A stretch of DNA of 37,039 bases from an uncultured Silvanigrella sp. (lineage in GTDB: Bacteria > Bdellovibrionota_B > Oligoflexia > Silvanigrellales > Silvanigrellaceae), in NCBI GenBank assembly GCA_903933385.1, contig CAIZJW010000043.1, positions 1 through 37,039 on the forward strand, written 5' to 3'. The first letter of the stretch is position 1. Each line of letters begins with the position of its first letter. The position numbers and the translations under genes were made by a program. The notes under the pieces were generated by a model, which worked only from the letters and a program-made list of their open reading frames with translations, was not told the origin of the DNA and did no database searches. Below, in pieces: positions 9,887 to 33,030 of the stretch.

Positions 9887-10903
9887 TCAGATTTTTTTTG
9901 ATGACTCTATGTTCGAACGTCCTACCCTTGCTCTTTCCGGGAAGAGGTGAGCAGCCTTGTAACTACTGCGCACGAGTGGGCCTGAAGCCACGCCTTTGAA
10001 GCCAAGCGCTTCGGCGATATGTTGCCAATGTTTGAATTCATCAGGATGGACAAAACGTTTTATGTTGAGGTGTTTATTTGATGGCTGAAGATATTGACCA
10101 ATTGTAACAATATCGACTCCAACTTCGCGCATGTCTCGGAGGCTTTGCTCAATTTCAGCGGCTTCTTCGCCAAGGCCCAGCATGAGTGCGCTTTTTGTAA
10201 AGCTCTGCGGACGCATTTTGCGCGCATTCTCGAGAACACGGAGACTCTGGTCGTATTTTGCCCGAGCATCACGAACGCGCGGAGAAAGACGGCGCACGGT
10301 TTCAAGATTGTGGGCAAAGACATCAATGCCATTGCCAGCGAAAAGAACTGTGTGAAGTGGCTCTTCGCGGCCTTGAAAGTCGCCCGCAAGAATTTCAAGA
10401 ATGAGGCCTGGGTTCTCTAACTGAATCGCTTCAACTGTGCGTGCGATGTGTGCTGCGCCTCCGTCTGGGAGATCATCGCGATCAACCATTGTTATGACGG
10501 CGTAGTCGAGCTTCATTTTTTTGATGTTCATGGCCGTATTCATGGGTTCATTGGCATCAAGCAACCCTGCCGGATTGCCGGTTTTGACAGCGCAAAATCG
10601 GCATCCGCGGGTGCAGGTGTCGCCAAGAATCATGAACGTTGCAGTTCCGCTGTTCCAGCATTCGGAAATGTTCGGACAGCGTGCTTCTTCGCAAACGGTG
10701 AAGAGTCGCCCTTCACGCAGAGTGCGTTTGATTTCGTAGAGGCGCTCGCCTTTGACTTGCTCAGACTTCAGCCATTTGGGCTTCAGGGGCTTACCCGTGC
10801 GAGGATTAATTTCCGGAGTGACACTCAGAGCCGTGAGTTCCGCATGGGTGAGTTCTTCCTTTGAGGATTTTTCTTCAGCCTGGTGGTTGTTTTCAAGGCT
10901 CAT
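9887..10903 (-). CDS. lipA: lipoyl synthase LipA
   Basis: Lipoyl synthase is a radical SAM enzyme that inserts two sulfurs into octanoyl groups on lipoyl carrier proteins. Both iron-sulfur cluster motifs are complete: auxiliary CEEARCPNISEC (C71, C76, C82) and radical SAM CTRGCRFC (C97, C101, C104). The C-terminal RSSYKA supplies the serine ligand of the auxiliary cluster. DYAVITMVDRDDLPDGGAAH and LMLGLGE are also diagnostic. At 338 residues it has a somewhat long N-terminal extension. ATG 10903 is chosen because AGGAG lies nine bases upstream; earlier in-frame starts lack a site. It heads the operon with the acyltransferase and GT9 genes, a pairing with no obvious metabolic link. Confidence 0.97.
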   Translation of the reverse strand: MSLENNHQAEEKSSKEELTHAELTALSVTPEINPRTGKPLKPKWLKSEQVKGERLYEIKRTLREGRLFTVCEEARCPNISECWNSGTATFMILGDTCTRGCRFCAVKTGNPAGLLDANEPMNTAMNIKKMKLDYAVITMVDRDDLPDGGAAHIARTVEAIQLENPGLILEILAGDFQGREEPLHTVLFAGNGIDVFAHNLETVRRLSPRVRDARAKYDQSLRVLENARKMRPQSFTKSALMLGLGEEAAEIEQSLRDMREVGVDIVTIGQYLQPSNKHLNIKRFVHPDEFKHWQHIAEALGFKGVASGPLVRSSYKAAHLFPERARVGRSNIESSKKI

Positions 10904-10974
10904 GTTATGCATCTCCTGCTCTTGGCAGCTGTCTAACAGCCCCTGTGTCCACCCGCAAGACAAGGATGCAAAGC

Positions 10975-12009
10975 ATGGCTCGAATACCTACGTTGGAATT
11001 GCAAATAGCCAATATGAAAAGGCTTTTGAGGATGATGTGCGATAGGGTTCATGCGAGCTTGTTAGTTGTAGAACAACATCTTCACATTCCGAATCCAGAA
11101 GCTCTGGTTAAAGTCGTTGCTCTCGATAGCGAAGTTGATCGCATGGAAATTGAGTTGGACGAAGCTGTTTTGCAAATTTTTGCGACCCAGCAGCCACGCG
11201 CTCAAGAACTGCGTTTGGTTTATGCAACCGCTAAAATTGCGCATCATATCGAGCGAATGGGTGATGCTGTTGAAAGTTTGGCTCGGCAGCTAGCCGGCGC
11301 TGAAATTAGTGAAAGCCGTGAATTATTACTCGAGATGATCACTCATGTGAAAGATCTTTTCGCGCGATCATATTCGGCGATGTTCGAAGAAGACCTTACG
11401 AGAATTCAGGAGATCTTTGACCTCGATGACGCGGTTGATGAATGCCAGCGTGCGATTGTCTTCATTGCCAAAGACATCTTTCTTTGTGCGCCGCGCGATC
11501 CTCAAGCTGTTGAACGAGGTTTAAAGCTCATAAATATCGCATCAAAGCTGGAAAAAGTCGCAGATCTTTGTTGCAACTGGGCAGAACAAACCGACTTCGC
11601 TGCACATGGTTTTTCTCGCAGAGTTTTGAAGAAACGCCGACTCAGACTCGTGCTTCTCGATGAATCTGGAGGGCGATTAGCGGCATCAAGCGCAGCGCTT
11701 CTGACCAAAGATCTCTCGAACGCCGTCGATGTAACAGTTGCAACAAAGCATGCCTTGGCATCAGATGTGTCTAATGCTTCTCACTCTTTTCCAGTTGTGC
11801 GTTTCGAACAGGTGTCTTGGTCTCGCTGTTTTTTGCTTGTGAATCTTGGAACGCCACTCTCCTTTGATGAGCGCGAAACGATTCCAAACAAAACAATGGT
11901 CATTGAATGGGATTTTTCAGATGAGTCGCTTGAGCAGGCTGAAATTAATGTGAGGGAGAGGTTGTCAGGCCTGCTCAGCATTCTGGCGCGCTCCGATGTT
12001 TCCATCTGA
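10975..12009 (+). CDS. PhoU-domain protein with degenerate LMW phosphatase-like C-terminus
   Basis: Residues ~5-215 carry the two PhoU helical repeats. The first has ALDSEVDRMEIELDEAVLQI and IAHHIERMGDAVESLA; the second has FDLDDAVDECQRAI and IASKLEKVADLCCNWAEQT. PhoU usually restrains the PhoR kinase and the Pst transporter under phosphate excess. The extra ~105 C-terminal residues begin RRLRLVLLDESGGRLAASSA and end TMVIEWDFSDE...VRERLSGLL. This layout recalls low-molecular-weight phosphatase/arsenate reductase domains (V.F.C.GNS.RS ... W..PDP), but the catalytic cysteine position is Leu. The start ATG 10975 has AAGG nine bases upstream; an upstream open stretch lacks a ribosome site. It is divergent from lipA. 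No pst or phoBR genes are visible nearby. Confidence 0.82.
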   Translation: MARIPTLELQIANMKRLLRMMCDRVHASLLVVEQHLHIPNPEALVKVVALDSEVDRMEIELDEAVLQIFATQQPRAQELRLVYATAKIAHHIERMGDAVESLARQLAGAEISESRELLLEMITHVKDLFARSYSAMFEEDLTRIQEIFDLDDAVDECQRAIVFIAKDIFLCAPRDPQAVERGLKLINIASKLEKVADLCCNWAEQTDFAAHGFSRRVLKKRRLRLVLLDESGGRLAASSAALLTKDLSNAVDVTVATKHALASDVSNASHSFPVVRFEQVSWSRCFLLVNLGTPLSFDERETIPNKTMVIEWDFSDESLEQAEINVRERLSGLLSILARSDVSI

Positions 12010-25975: not shown

Positions 25976-26515
25976 TCATTCGATGCAAGTTACTTTTGGA
26001 TATTTGATGCTGTCACATTTGAGCCCTTTGTCTTTCACCAAAGTCTTCAGATTTGGTAAACTTGCGAGCAATCCATTGAGCTGATCCTGAGTAAAATTGT
26101 TGCCAGGCATGCTGAGAGTCACAATTTTTTTAAAAACCAGTAGGGGTGATATGTCAGTGAGCCCTTCGTTGTTGAGATAAACAATTTGCATATTTTTTTC
26201 AGCCCAGTTTGCCGTAGAATTCAGATTGTGCACCGGACCATAAAAATCTCTGATTGACTTGATTAAGGAATCCACTGTCTTTGACTCAGCTGGAGTCACC
26301 TCCTCTTTCGTCAACCATTGGACCGAGGTTAATCCGATTCTGAATGATTTCGTTTCCGAGACGAGTGATTCTTCTGGCGCAGCAGTGGGGCTAGCCACTG
26401 ATTGTTCACTGCCCGGAGATGAATGGTGTTTGCAGCCTGCAAAGACAGACATCAGAAGAACTGACATCACGGCCGGCACGAAATGTTTCGAGATCAAGAA
26501 TTGTTTAAAGTTCAT
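25976..26515 (-). CDS. lipoprotein with short leucine-rich-repeat-like region
   Basis: The 179-residue protein has a signal peptide with lipobox VFAGC, followed by a Ser/Pro/Glu-rich linker. The C-terminal half has LRR-like strands (MQIVYLNNEGLTDISPLLVF, IVTLSMPGNNFT, LLASLPNLKTLV) like the few-repeat internalin type, ending with two cysteines that could form a disulfide. It is probably a periplasmic or surface-facing binding protein; the partner is unknown. AAGGGG lies eight bases before ATG 26515. It heads the operon with the DUF1400-like lipoprotein and is divergent from the FHA operon across 174 bases. Confidence 0.72.
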   Translation of the reverse strand: MNFKQFLISKHFVPAVMSVLLMSVFAGCKHHSSPGSEQSVASPTAAPEESLVSETKSFRIGLTSVQWLTKEEVTPAESKTVDSLIKSIRDFYGPVHNLNSTANWAEKNMQIVYLNNEGLTDISPLLVFKKIVTLSMPGNNFTQDQLNGLLASLPNLKTLVKDKGLKCDSIKYPKVTCIE

Positions 26516-26689
26516 CGTTTATCCCCTTTTGCTCGACCCATCCATGTCGGAATCTTTGACGTAATTCATGAGTTTTTTTGTTTTTATCAGAAATTATTGA
26601 TGCTTGACGGTTGTGCCTCTCTTTCAAAATTGAATTGCGATAATCTTTTTTCAATCAAATCATCTTTAATCTTGATTCGGGGATTCAAC

Positions 26690-27472
26690 GTGGGTGAACA
26701 ACATCAATGTCCTTTTGTTTCCAGGGAGGCTTGGAAAAAGGGCTCCGGCTCTGGCCATCCTGCGGTCCACGTTCTGAGTGTCGGGCAAAATCCGAGTCTT
26801 TGCCCATCAAATCAAACAACAGGCTGGTTACTTGGTTTGGGTGGAGCGCATGCTGGTGAAGATCTGCGCGTCACAGTGGGCGAAACTTACGTGGGCTCAG
26901 GTTGGGATTCCGACATTGTTCTTACGACACCCGAAGTGAGTCGACGTCATGGCAAATTCACTTCCGCCGGAGGTGTGACACTCCTTGAAGACAATGGCAG
27001 TGCAACCGGAGTTGCGGTGAATGGTGAATTCATCCGTGAGCCTCGCATGATTCAGCATGGCGACAGAATTAAGTTCGGGGTGGGTGATTTTTTGTTCTAT
27101 TCCGCAGATGAAACAACGTCAGATAAAGCGTTAGACGACGAAAATTTGAAGATCTTTAAAAAGTGCGCATCTCCAACGATGGCATGGCTTATTTGTCGCA
27201 GTGGAGATTGCTCTGGAATGGATTTTCGCCTGCTGAAAGGTCTCAACAGAGTCGGTGCGCTTCCCGGTCTAGAGATTGTTCTACCCGACCAGAATCTCAA
27301 TTCGATTCACATGACAATTGAATGCTCCGACGATCGAATTTATCTGCGTCCAGGATTTGCAACGTTGCGATTACTTCGGGCTGGTTCGATAGTCGAGCGC
27401 CCGGGAAGTTTGCGCGATAAAGATGTACTTAGGATTGGTGCACTCGAATTGTTTTTGAGGTGTATTCATTGA
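26690..27472 (+). CDS. double FHA-domain protein
   Basis: The protein is 260 residues, cytoplasmic, without signal or span. FHA-1 (~45-137) has VGSGWDSDIVLTTPEVSRRH and EDNGSATGVAVNG: the SxxH and NG phosphothreonine-binding positions are kept, while the usual GR is GS. FHA-2 (~165-258) has the fold pattern (NRVGALPGLEIVLPD, NSIHMTIE, LRDKDVLRIGALELF) but lacks the second-loop NG, so it is probably degenerate. The frame is open to 26483, but that would cross the divergent gene; GTG 26690 with CGGGGA upstream is chosen, with moderate confidence. It is first of three FHA genes, and its stop overlaps the next start. No Ser/Thr kinase gene is in the window. Confidence 0.82.
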   Translation: MGEQHQCPFVSREAWKKGSGSGHPAVHVLSVGQNPSLCPSNQTTGWLLGLGGAHAGEDLRVTVGETYVGSGWDSDIVLTTPEVSRRHGKFTSAGGVTLLEDNGSATGVAVNGEFIREPRMIQHGDRIKFGVGDFLFYSADETTSDKALDDENLKIFKKCASPTMAWLICRSGDCSGMDFRLLKGLNRVGALPGLEIVLPDQNLNSIHMTIECSDDRIYLRPGFATLRLLRAGSIVERPGSLRDKDVLRIGALELFLRCIH

Positions 27473-28995
27473 AGTTGAAAATCATTTCAATCATTTCCTT
27501 CCTGGGTGCGCTGAATCCAATGATTGCAAAGTCAGAGGAGCCAGGCTCGTCGGTTGCCGCAGACGCACAAACTTCGATTCAGAGAAAGATATCAATTCGA
27601 GCTTACGAGATTTTTCAGGAGAGGAAGTTGAGAATTCATCTGATTCTCGACGAATCAGATGGTTCTGGCAGATATTTACTCAACACTCTTGATGCTAAGT
27701 CTTTCAGACTACAGCCTGAAGAAGCCAGCGAGCCGCCCATTGAGCCAACTTCACTCAGTACTTTTGCAAACCGATCGCCTGCAGCGTACAGAGAAACTGC
27801 GGTTGTTTTTGAGGCAAATAAAGAGTTCTCCGAGCGGCAATTTGATTCAATTCGTTCAGCCGTTGCTGGATTTTTAGGTGGTTTTCGCTCCGATGTTCTC
27901 TCAGTGAGAGCGACAACGGAAGAAAAAGAAAGTCGCCTGGCGTGGATTGCTCCTGGTCAATCCGAGAATCCTCGTGCCGTTCAGAAATCAATCCTTGAGA
28001 GCCCCTCTCTGGATGGAAAGGCAGGAGTCGCTGCAGGTGTTTGCGCCGCAATGAAAGAATTGGAGTCTGAGAGTCCTCCAATGTCGCCAGCGCAAAGGAG
28101 TCTTATCCTGATCTCCAGGGCAGCTGGTGATGGCAGTTCCGGATGGTCGGAAGCTCGAAAATGTCTTGCACAGGCAATTCAATCAAGCGTTAGAATTTTC
28201 TGGGTACGAATTCGCGACTTGGAATCACAACAAGTTGGGAAATTTGATTCTGTCATTGAGGGGGTTGTTGATAAAAGTGGCGGATTTGTTGGCAAACTCA
28301 CTGCGACTTCCGACCCAGTTGGAGCATTGAGTAATCTGCGTTCCTACCTAGACGATGAGTACATTCTCGAGTTCGATTTCACACAATATCGGCCATATTC
28401 AGATATTTTGAAATTTTCCGTCAGCGCGAATTACCATGGGAATATATATCGAAGTGCCGAGCATAAATATGAGGGTTTTGTGGCCAAGCCACGGCCTGAG
28501 GAATTAGAGCGTGTCGAGCAGGCAAGAGAATCTGCACGAATCAAGGAACGTCAGGCATATTATTTTATCTCTGCAGTTTTATTACTCTCATCTTTTTTTA
28601 TCGTTTATTTTCTGCGCAGAAATACTGCTGGATGCAAAAAATGCGGCTTCAGGGTGTCGAACAGTTTTCAGGATTGTCCCTTCCGAAACGCCAAATGCCA
28701 CGGACGTATGAGTGTCATACAGGGCCCAGGCTTGGGAAGTGAGTTTCCGCTGTTTTCTGGAGAGAACTCATTTGGCAGCAGTCGCTCAAACACAATCCGT
28801 TGGAAAGCAAACGGCTTAGCGCGGAAGCATGGGACAATTGTCATCACAAAGCGCAAGGCACTGTTCTCACCGGCGCGTGGAAGTCAGACAAGAGTCAATG
28901 GCGTAATGGCGACAGAGCCGCGCTTGCTTTCTTCTGGTAGCATTTTGAGAATCGGTGATGTGGTTTGCCGGGTCGACTTTAAAGAGGGTGCATGA
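27469..28995 (+). CDS. membrane protein: periplasmic vWA-like domain, TM, zinc ribbon, FHA
   Basis: The 508-residue protein has a signal peptide (~1-20). The periplasmic part (~25-360) contains a vWA-like core: a strand ETAVVFEANKEFS where DxSxS would be, and QRSLILISRAAGDGSSGWSE where the T-D metal loop would be. The MIDAS residues are therefore missing. One span (~363-382) is followed by a cytoplasmic zinc ribbon (CKKC, C, C; ~389-410) and a C-terminal FHA domain (~415-500; SFGSSRSNTIRWKANGLARK, then RGSQTRVNG). TTG 27469 is chosen: GAGG lies eight bases upstream and the codon overlaps the previous TGA as TTGA. Its stop overlaps the next ATG. It may act as a sensor or assembly platform (inference). 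Confidence 0.75.
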   Translation: MKLKIISIISFLGALNPMIAKSEEPGSSVAADAQTSIQRKISIRAYEIFQERKLRIHLILDESDGSGRYLLNTLDAKSFRLQPEEASEPPIEPTSLSTFANRSPAAYRETAVVFEANKEFSERQFDSIRSAVAGFLGGFRSDVLSVRATTEEKESRLAWIAPGQSENPRAVQKSILESPSLDGKAGVAAGVCAAMKELESESPPMSPAQRSLILISRAAGDGSSGWSEARKCLAQAIQSSVRIFWVRIRDLESQQVGKFDSVIEGVVDKSGGFVGKLTATSDPVGALSNLRSYLDDEYILEFDFTQYRPYSDILKFSVSANYHGNIYRSAEHKYEGFVAKPRPEELERVEQARESARIKERQAYYFISAVLLLSSFFIVYFLRRNTAGCKKCGFRVSNSFQDCPFRNAKCHGRMSVIQGPGLGSEFPLFSGENSFGSSRSNTIRWKANGLARKHGTIVITKRKALFSPARGSQTRVNGVMATEPRLLSSGSILRIGDVVCRVDFKEGA

Positions 28996-30197
28996 AAAGT
29001 CGTTTTGTCATCCGATTTGTTGCGGGCCCGTTGCACGACAAATCTTTTGAGTTGGGCGAGGGCGATAGCCGCACCATAGGCAAAGGTGAATTATCCTCAA
29101 TTCGCCTCGACGACGATGCTCTGGTGAGTCGGACTCATGCTCGAATCACGCTCGAACGTGGAACTCTGTGGATTGAAGACCTTGGAAGCCGCAATGGTAC
29201 ATTCATCAACGGGAAGATGATCGAAAAAAAGACAATGGTCCGTGCTGGTGACAAAGTGACTCTGGGGCAATTGAGTAGTTTTCAATGTTCACCGTGGAAC
29301 GCTCTTGAGCCGTCTCGATTTGCAAGTGCAGTGCTCACCCAAGTTACGAACATAGCAGCTCGCATGAAACGCAGGCCGAAAGCGTCTATTTGGCCGCAGT
29401 TCCTCATCTTGCAGCTGATTGTCTCCGTGGTCGTTGGTGCCGCTTGGTGGGGAGGAAAAAAATTTCGCATGCGCGCCGTGGAAAGTCAGCCCACGACACA
29501 GGAGTCAAGCGGCGTCTCTGCTGAAGTCATTCGAAGGCAACAAGACAGAAAGGTAGTTTCAATTCCCGACGTTCCGCGCAACTTTATTTGGGATGAGATT
29601 GTTGCTGTTTCCAGAAGGTTCGGTGACGCCCCACCATCTGTGATGGATGTTCAATTTCAGAAAAAGGTAGAGAGCTGGATAGAGCGCTTTACCCGTGGTG
29701 ATGCTCATAAAAAGCTATTTGAGCGCAAGGAGAAGTATTGGCCAACAATTCTCTCGGCACTCTCACAAGAGGGGTTGCCTGCAGAACTTGGATACTTGGT
29801 CTGGATTGAATCAGAGTTCAATCTTAACGCTCAAAGTCATGCGGGTGCGCTTGGATTGTGGCAGTTCATGCCGGGAACAGCCCGTGATTTTGGATTGCAG
29901 GTCGATGCTCAGCAGAAAATTGATGAAAGAATTGATGCTGTGAAAAGTTCAAAGGCTGCGGCGCAATATCTTTCGATGCTGCTCAAACAATTTGGCACCG
30001 ACCGGTATATGTTGGCAATTGCATCCTACAATGCCGGACAAAACAAAATTCAGCGCAAGACGATTGCTGCTCAGATCCGCCGCGCTCCCAAACCAGACTT
30101 CTGGGCGCTGCGAGATCAGCTTCCACAAGAGACCATTGACTACGTCCCAAAATTTCTCGCAGCAATTATCATCAATCGCAATCCTGAGCGTTGGTGA
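28992..30197 (+). CDS. FHA-TM-lytic transglycosylase fusion (MltD-like)
   Basis: The 401-residue protein has three parts. The FHA domain (~5-95) carries RTIGKGELSSIRLDDDALVS, SRTH and GSRNGT, with the full phosphothreonine-binding set apart from GK for GR. One span (~135-153, FLILQLIVSVVVGAAWWGG) follows. The periplasmic SLT domain (~245-395) has catalytic Glu273 in WIESEFNLNA, then AGALGLWQFMPGTA, a DERIDAVKSSKAAAQYL segment and ASYNAG, which matches MltD-type lytic transglycosylases that cut glycan strands with 1,6-anhydro products. No LysM domain is present. ATG 28992 overlaps the preceding stop as ATGA. Putting a phosphopeptide reader in the cytoplasm and a wall enzyme outside on one chain is unusual. 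Its 3' end overlaps the Rsm22 gene by 26 bases. Confidence 0.9.
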   Translation: MKSRFVIRFVAGPLHDKSFELGEGDSRTIGKGELSSIRLDDDALVSRTHARITLERGTLWIEDLGSRNGTFINGKMIEKKTMVRAGDKVTLGQLSSFQCSPWNALEPSRFASAVLTQVTNIAARMKRRPKASIWPQFLILQLIVSVVVGAAWWGGKKFRMRAVESQPTTQESSGVSAEVIRRQQDRKVVSIPDVPRNFIWDEIVAVSRRFGDAPPSVMDVQFQKKVESWIERFTRGDAHKKLFERKEKYWPTILSALSQEGLPAELGYLVWIESEFNLNAQSHAGALGLWQFMPGTARDFGLQVDAQQKIDERIDAVKSSKAAAQYLSMLLKQFGTDRYMLAIASYNAGQNKIQRKTIAAQIRRAPKPDFWALRDQLPQETIDYVPKFLAAIIINRNPERW

Positions 30198-32169: not shown

Positions 32170-33030
32170 TCAGAAAATTTTACGATAAATGTGGCAATAC
32201 GGTGTTTTGGCTTCATGAAAATAATATTTTTGGTGGTAGTCTTCTGCGGGCCAAAAATGTGCATTAGGTCGAATTTGTGTTGCGACTTTGAAGCCTTTTT
32301 CTTTGAGAGTCTCAATAACTTTCTCGGCAACTCTACGCTCGTCAGTAGAACTCAGAAAAAGCGCTGATAAGTATTGAGGTCCGATGTCGGGACCTTGACC
32401 ATTGGTTTGGCTGAAGTCGTGTGTTTCAAAAAAGAGTTTACATAAATGCTCGTAGCTGACCTGAGTGGGGTTGTAGGTCACTTCACAGCATTCTAGGTGT
32501 CCGGTTGAGCCAGCACAGACTTGCTTGTAGCTCGGGTTTTCAATGTGACCACCAGCAAAACCAACACGAGTTGCGAGCACCCCAGGCACTTTTGCAAAAT
32601 GAAATTCTGTTCCCCAAAAACACCCGGAAGCAAAAAGTGCTATCGAGGTTGGTTGGCTTTCAGAAGCCTTGAAAACGAGACTGATTGAGTTCACGCAATG
32701 GCGCAGATTTTTGCTCGTAAACCCCTCTCCCTCGAAGATGTGGCCAAGGTGTCCACCGCATGAGTTACAAACAATCTCCGTGCGGCGACCGTCGGGGTCA
32801 GGAATACGCTTCACGCTTCCGCTGATCTCATCATCGAAGCTTGGCCATCCGCAGTGTGATGGAAATTTGTCTTGCGAGCGATAGAGCGGAGAATCGCAGC
32901 GCTTACAATGGTAATGGCCGGGAGAATTTGTGTTGCAATACTCACCGGTGAATGGTTGCTCTGTTCCTTTTTTATCGATAACCCAAGATTCAAATGAAGA
33001 GAGTGGCCTAAAATTTTTGCTGTTATTCAT
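32170..33030 (-). CDS. msrAB: bifunctional methionine sulfoxide reductase B/A
   Basis: The protein repairs oxidised methionine, R form by the N-terminal MsrB and S form by the C-terminal MsrA. MsrB (~1-125) keeps the zinc cysteines (C42, C45, C88, C91), GWPSF, and catalytic C112 in LRHCVNS; Cys60 could be the resolving residue. MsrA (~128-286) has catalytic C137 in GCFWGTE, YAGGH-like GFAGGH, GHLECCEV and FWPAEDYHQKYY. There is no signal peptide, so it acts in the cytoplasm. ATG 33030 overlaps the stop of the cyclase gene (ATGA), so translation is coupled. The B-then-A order is the less common fusion order, but is known. Confidence 0.96.
   Translation of the reverse strand: MNNSKNFRPLSSFESWVIDKKGTEQPFTGEYCNTNSPGHYHCKRCDSPLYRSQDKFPSHCGWPSFDDEISGSVKRIPDPDGRRTEIVCNSCGGHLGHIFEGEGFTSKNLRHCVNSISLVFKASESQPTSIALFASGCFWGTEFHFAKVPGVLATRVGFAGGHIENPSYKQVCAGSTGHLECCEVTYNPTQVSYEHLCKLFFETHDFSQTNGQGPDIGPQYLSALFLSSTDERRVAEKVIETLKEKGFKVATQIRPNAHFWPAEDYHQKYYFHEAKTPYCHIYRKIF

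Follow-up and report, generated by a model that had tools for sequence, protein, structure and literature searches.

Pst-linked PhoU is a roughly single-domain protein, and the E/DxxxD metal motif is known from PhoU structures. PhoU fusions to Na/Pi cotransporters, TrkA-C and AbrB domains exist. To our knowledge, the relay of the phosphate signal by PhoU, which connects the Pst transporter with the PhoR kinase, is so far not fully understood. Here, we describe a long PhoU encoded on a contig of an uncultured Silvanigrella sp.; the window denotes the whole stretch of DNA that was analysed, 37,039 nucleotides in length. Like Pst-linked PhoU, the protein has two repeats, a six-helix model and the E/DxxxD acids, and it is the sole PhoU found beside PstB and a PhoR-like kinase. 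It differs from Pst-linked PhoU in carrying a C-terminal domain of ~130 residues, in being encoded next to lipA and not pst, and in scoring under the phoU_full cut-off. When the open-licence literature was searched by title and abstract opening, the matches listed included none on a fusion of PhoU to ArsC or LMWPTP, which does not prove that no such paper exists. The explanation that we favour, with a probability of about 0.55, is that of a family-specific PhoU whose C-terminal domain, catalytically dead and predicted to adopt the ArsC/LMW-phosphatase fold, acts as a non-catalytic interaction module.

The long phoU gene and its PhoU half

The open reading frame at 10975-12009 is a real gene, whose start Met is common to all 11 homologues in the alignment. 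A promoter and terminator scan gave nothing above chance. The features of the gene and of its PhoU half are as follows.

10975 to 12009, plus strand: phoU gene with C-terminal extension, 344 aa plus stop; a single ORF with ATG at 10975
10962 to 10966, plus strand: probable Shine-Dalgarno AAGGA, eight bases 5' of the ATG, read from the sequence without statistics
11035 to 11289, plus strand: PhoU domain 1 (PF01895), 53.3 bits, E 9.1e-14
11326 to 11589, plus strand: PhoU domain 2 (PF01895), 49.5 bits, E 1.4e-12

The two PhoU repeats claimed by an earlier note on this DNA were borne out, as both PF01895 domains lie above the Pfam cut-off (91.7 bits for the two-repeat PhoU, against a gathering score of 23.5, within the first 212 residues). 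The NCBIfam model phoU_full (TIGR02135) matched residues 8-211 with 94.6 bits, which is below its equivalog cut-off of 130.25. The whole-protein model has a predicted six-helix fold in this half, and solved PhoU structures occupied Foldseek ranks 1-10 (TM by target 0.68-0.78); the sequences of five solved PhoU structures also match the PhoU half. The acids of the E/DxxxD motifs (D51, D55, E93, D97, D151, D155, E193 and D197) are identical in 11/11 homologues, and with these residues kept the PhoU half retains the putative metal motifs. The ORF is the sole PhoU found in the window's genome, and each of the 11 fused genomes gave a single PhoU match at a limit of E 0.001.

Two further loci in the window were noted by eye. 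Three adjacent genes at 26483-30197 include FHA-like segments, the last of them being also lytic transglycosylase-like, and the frame at 32170-33030 on the minus strand reads as a methionine sulfoxide reductase fusion in which the B part precedes the A part.

Gene context and Pho partners

The neighbour on the 5' side of phoU is conserved in relatives.

9887 to 10963, minus strand: lipA-like gene (lipoyl synthase, named by eye), divergent from phoU

A lipA-like gene lies divergently next to phoU in six of the seven fused relatives examined, out of ten relatives; in the seventh (L117), lipA was seen by eye only, antisense of the long phoU frame. No PhoU was found in the pst stretches (12-19 kb) of any of the four fused genomes examined (G000, G001, G003 and G010). 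PstB scored above cut-off in 12 of the 14 family genomes, including all 11 that carry the fusion, and all 11 also have a full-length PhoR-like kinase; at 236-250 bits, these kinases fall short of the 334.2 bits set for the equivalog. Of the 14 genomes, one, the unfused G004, gave a match for a Pit-type transporter.

In the window's genus, the two pst permease genes are of unusual length (L123:7105-11422, minus strand; 574 and 863 aa). Each has one permease domain, toward the C-terminus, and the same layout recurs at L126:9742-14047; among the ORFs listed near these genes, no PstS stood out by eye.

Distribution of the fused form

Our class sample consisted of 58 genomes, and the phylum sample of the same 58. 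A PhoU match was obtained in 29 of 56 related genomes, in 11 of them in the long form. A profile of the C-terminal domain matched 11/58 genomes of the class with E below 1e-43, all in the window's family (11/14), and none of the 44 class genomes outside that family, where three rows with E 0.1-0.41 were taken as chance. A single-sequence scan of genome contigs returned two close relatives. Within the family, G004 is unfused and has an ordinary PhoU, a frame of 227 residues directly after pstB, and no PhoU match was obtained in G005 (83% complete) or G013 (72% complete). We infer that the C-terminal domain was gained in an ancestor of the family.

The Pfam model LMWPc gave 32 rows in the 56 related genomes. 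No PhoU half was found near LMWPc in the 31 of 32 places with flanks, where two rows of E 8 arose at L070 only and the control, phoU of G004, was detected; the place left out of this flank scan is a G006 row of E 0.09. On plasmids, 38 records match PhoU, none across more than 80% of the query.

Other composite frames came up among the ArsC and LMWPc loci. At L068 (G043:C120, 1462-2319, minus strand) an ArsC frame continues, by eye, into a glyoxalase-like half, which makes it another ArsC fusion in the class. L047 (G000:C247, 151-1980) is a 642-residue frame with a C-terminal LMW phosphatase that has Cys-x5-Arg and with a front that is ATP-grasp ligase-like by eye; Pfam names the LMWPc part only. 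At L076 (G002:C174), LMWPc lies within a 627-residue frame.

The C-terminal domain is under purifying selection

11617 to 12006, plus strand: predicted pseudo-ArsC/LMWPTP-like C-terminal domain including a basic linker, residues 215-344, supported by AlphaFold2 and structure comparison

The 11 homologues, the window included, align over their full length, and the C-terminal identity of the ten relatives to the window is 29-72%. In the seven closer pairs of the nine tested, C-terminal dN was 0.09-0.44 against a dS of 0.96 to saturated. The window and L001 gave a dN of 0.225 and a dS of 1.54 in this part, and four pairs inside another genus of the family gave dN 0.09-0.19 and dS 0.96-1.6; because several other pairs are saturated at synonymous sites, only the direction of selection is safe. 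The C-terminal domain is under purifying selection. Conservation in 11 genomes together with this selection indicates that the domain reflects neither frame noise nor decay, and dN versus dS rules out a pseudogene.

The domain diverges faster than the PhoU half in 9/9 pairs tested; between the window and two genus relatives, C-terminal identity is 71% and 54%, that of the PhoU half 88%. Such rapid evolution would suit a structural filler, a domain whose sole effect is to stabilise PhoU or make it dimerise, with no part in signalling. Against this stand the residues that are invariant in 11/11 homologues (Asp229, Phe272-Pro273, Arg276, Trp282, Leu291-Gly292 and Trp312), which suggest a specific site, and we regard the filler as quite unlikely.

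Predicted fold of the C-terminal domain

Searches of Pfam, NCBIfam and PHROGs gave no credible match for the C-terminal ~130 residues. The Pfam model LMWPc, which matches two other places in the window's genome (Pfam genome scan), produced no row for any of the 11 members at a limit of E 10, HMMER filters removing most rows above 0.1. Rows for Rax2 (3 members, best E 0.014) and NDC10_II (1 member, 0.038) in the 11 C-terminal domains were taken as chance. A PDB sequence search with the C-terminal profile returned three weak rows, the best with E 0.017 (pseudouridylate synthase), which were taken as unrelated.

We modelled the full-length protein and the C-terminal part alone with AlphaFold2, in both cases from the same three sequences (window, L001 and L002). 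The best full-length model had a mean pLDDT of 74.4, the five models spanning 74 to 59, and the C-terminal part alone reached pLDDT 79.6 and pTM 0.76, with five models at 80 to 76. The latter is an alpha/beta domain, with its elements in the order strand, helix, strand, short strand, strand, short helix, strand, long helix.

With the full model, the arsenate reductase Cg_ArsC1' (3t38) took Foldseek rank 11 (E 2e-3), the first after the ten PhoU rows. With the C-terminal model, ArsC held ranks 1 and 2 (E 6.8e-3; TM 0.63 and 0.59), followed by catalase C-terminal domains (E 7.3e-3, TM 0.37), and no match reached E 0.001. VIA-align was run on the 1000 chains ranked highest by Foldseek, and the best 50 entries were considered. 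ArsC and LMWPTP filled ranks 1-20 of these 50, with Z 11.5-9.2 and 101-122 of 130 residues aligned; because several were solved repeatedly, the 20 entries represent only about ten proteins. The best was 3t38 (Z 11.5, 119 residues aligned). After rank 20 came Ssu72 (8.9), IIB-mannitol (8.6) and the first dehydrogenase (8.4). Receiver rows had Z 8.2 and below, and Pfam receiver rows in the 11 members were nil.

The window domain thus shares its predicted fold with thioredoxin-coupled ArsC (3t38, and pI258 ArsC with Z up to 10.6), but has neither the Cys nucleophile, the P-loop Arg nor the redox Cys pair of these enzymes. It likewise resembles LMW protein tyrosine phosphatases in predicted fold (YfkJ 4etm, Z 10.4; MPtpA 1u2p, Z 9.6), but has no Cys-x5-Arg, and its profile similarity to them is within shuffle range. 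The PTS IIB mannitol permease domain (1vkr) has a similar topology over 92 residues with a lower Z. That domain is phosphorylated on a Cys, and the title of 1vrv names C384; this Cys is without a counterpart in the 5/11 C-terminal domains that are Cys-free.

The earlier note had assigned the ArsC/LMWPTP fold to this region and had named a different predicted fold as what would refute it. Comparison of the three-sequence model with solved folds returned no such fold, and the predicted ArsC/LMWPTP assignment holds at this level. A different Rossmann-like fold, be it receiver-like, PTS IIB-like or other, could have converged on the ArsC shape or been mis-modelled as such. Sequence profiles indeed give no confident ArsC link, IIB-mannitol and receivers follow ArsC/LMWPTP in Z, catalase domains come right after ArsC in Foldseek, and the Asp with which strand 1 ends is reminiscent of receivers. 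The block of ArsC/LMWPTP entries at the head of the VIA-align list and the length over which they align speak against this possibility, as does the place of 3t38 in the search with the full-length model, and we consider a different fold unlikely.

Sequence ancestry

Profile comparison by hhalign gave a probability of 1.6% with ArsC and 0.2% with LMWPTP. In 200 column shuffles, the ArsC score was reached by 5 (local) or 4 (global), that of LMWPTP by 75 (local) or 179 (global), and the ArsC hhalign score of 18.7 compares with 13.6 in a reversed control, slightly above chance. When the members were scored against the ArsC HMM with 200 sequence shuffles each, L009 reached 10.1 bits, above all 200, as 1/11 members, and the score of the window was reached by 68/200 of its own shuffles. 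By these shuffles, the ArsC signal is faint and an LMWPTP signal is absent. Proof of ArsC descent was thus not obtained by hhalign or by HMM scoring with shuffles; the C-terminal domain may descend from ArsC, a derivation to which the sequences lend weak support.

The active-site position

11659 to 11679, plus strand: site of the catalytic P-loop, residues 229-235, where Cys is replaced by Asp229 and Arg by Leu235; the pairing of the Arg is uncertain by about one residue

Where the aligned range begins, the numbering of the S. aureus (pI258) and B. subtilis ArsC lags a constant 5 behind that of the model, so that ArsC Cys10 falls on model residue 15, which is Asp229, if strand 1 is gap-free. 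A global alignment forced between the domain profile and an ArsC profile headed by the genome's own ArsC also set Asp229 opposite the Cys, without a gap, and the strand and helix limits of the C-terminal model place Asp229 at the nucleophile position as well. With realigned ArsC profile settings a gap shifts one residue around Asp229, and the global LMWPTP alignment runs elsewhere. The catalytic Cys position had been said to be Leu; that assignment has to be corrected, since the position is held by Asp229, present in 11/11 homologues, and Leu228 is the residue before it.

The P-loop Arg position is occupied by Leu (2), Val (4), Ile (3) or Gln (2) across the 11 homologues. Gly-Gly is found at 232-233 in 10/11, and Arg234, one residue before the P-loop Arg position, in the window only. 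The homologues that retain the Cys-X5-Arg loop, for which a search had been proposed, did not appear among the 11, none of which has Cys-x5-Arg anywhere in the C-terminal domain. Cys residues are scarce (one in the window, at most two per domain, none in 5/11), and there is no ArsC redox Cys pair. The loss of catalysis that the earlier note had read from the window alone is thus borne out, as far as sequence can tell, across the homologues: by known chemistry, a domain without Cys-x5-Arg would be unable to act as an LMW phosphatase or as a thioredoxin-coupled arsenate reductase, and the C-terminal domain is, judged by its residues, catalytically dead.

A stand-alone ArsC with Cys-x5-Arg intact was seen elsewhere in the window's genome (L048, G000:C312), adjoining, by eye, an ACR3-like arsenite pump gene. 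With this separate intact ArsC in the genome, arsenate is probably reduced elsewhere than by the PhoU fusion.

A dead domain could still sense a ligand, be it phosphate, arsenate or a phosphorylated partner, and report its binding to PhoU, as had been proposed before. The predicted ArsC/LMWPTP fold and the fusion to a phosphate regulator would agree with such a function, and the Gly-Gly of the loop could free backbone amides. However, the oxyanion-coordinating Arg is replaced in 11/11, Arg234 being a feature of the window only, and the invariant Asp at the nucleophile position should repel an oxyanion. With no phosphate-coordinating Arg and with an acid in the pocket throughout, oxyanion sensing is unlikely; the proposal is weakened, and a sensor appears quite improbable to us. 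Asp229 lies at the tip of strand 1 and is followed by Gly-Gly, and it might conceivably be an aspartyl phospho-acceptor or a cation site, that is, a receiver-like switch on PhoU. This we hold to be very unlikely; if true, the PhoR-like kinase or a small phosphodonor would set the state of PhoU through phosphorylation.

Discussion

As the catalytic residues are missing, the C-terminal domain is probably not an enzyme but a module for regulation or docking, in line with the interaction module that we favour. No other PhoU having been found in the cell, the PhoU half most likely continues to connect PstSCAB with the PhoR-like kinase. The C-terminal domain may help this PhoU to find or hold its partners, be they PstB, the kinase or a second PhoU, and such help with docking may matter because phoU lies outside the pst operon. 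We infer both roles, docking or regulation by the C-terminal domain and coupling of PstSCAB to the kinase by the PhoU half.

In the fused protein, one polypeptide joins a phosphate regulator to a fold that handles arsenate, a toxic phosphate mimic, at a site that looks chemically incapable. Most genomes of the family offer a natural combination of PhoU with a dead ArsC-like domain, present as the sole PhoU found and encoded outside pst, from which the extra domain could be removed and the effect on signalling measured.
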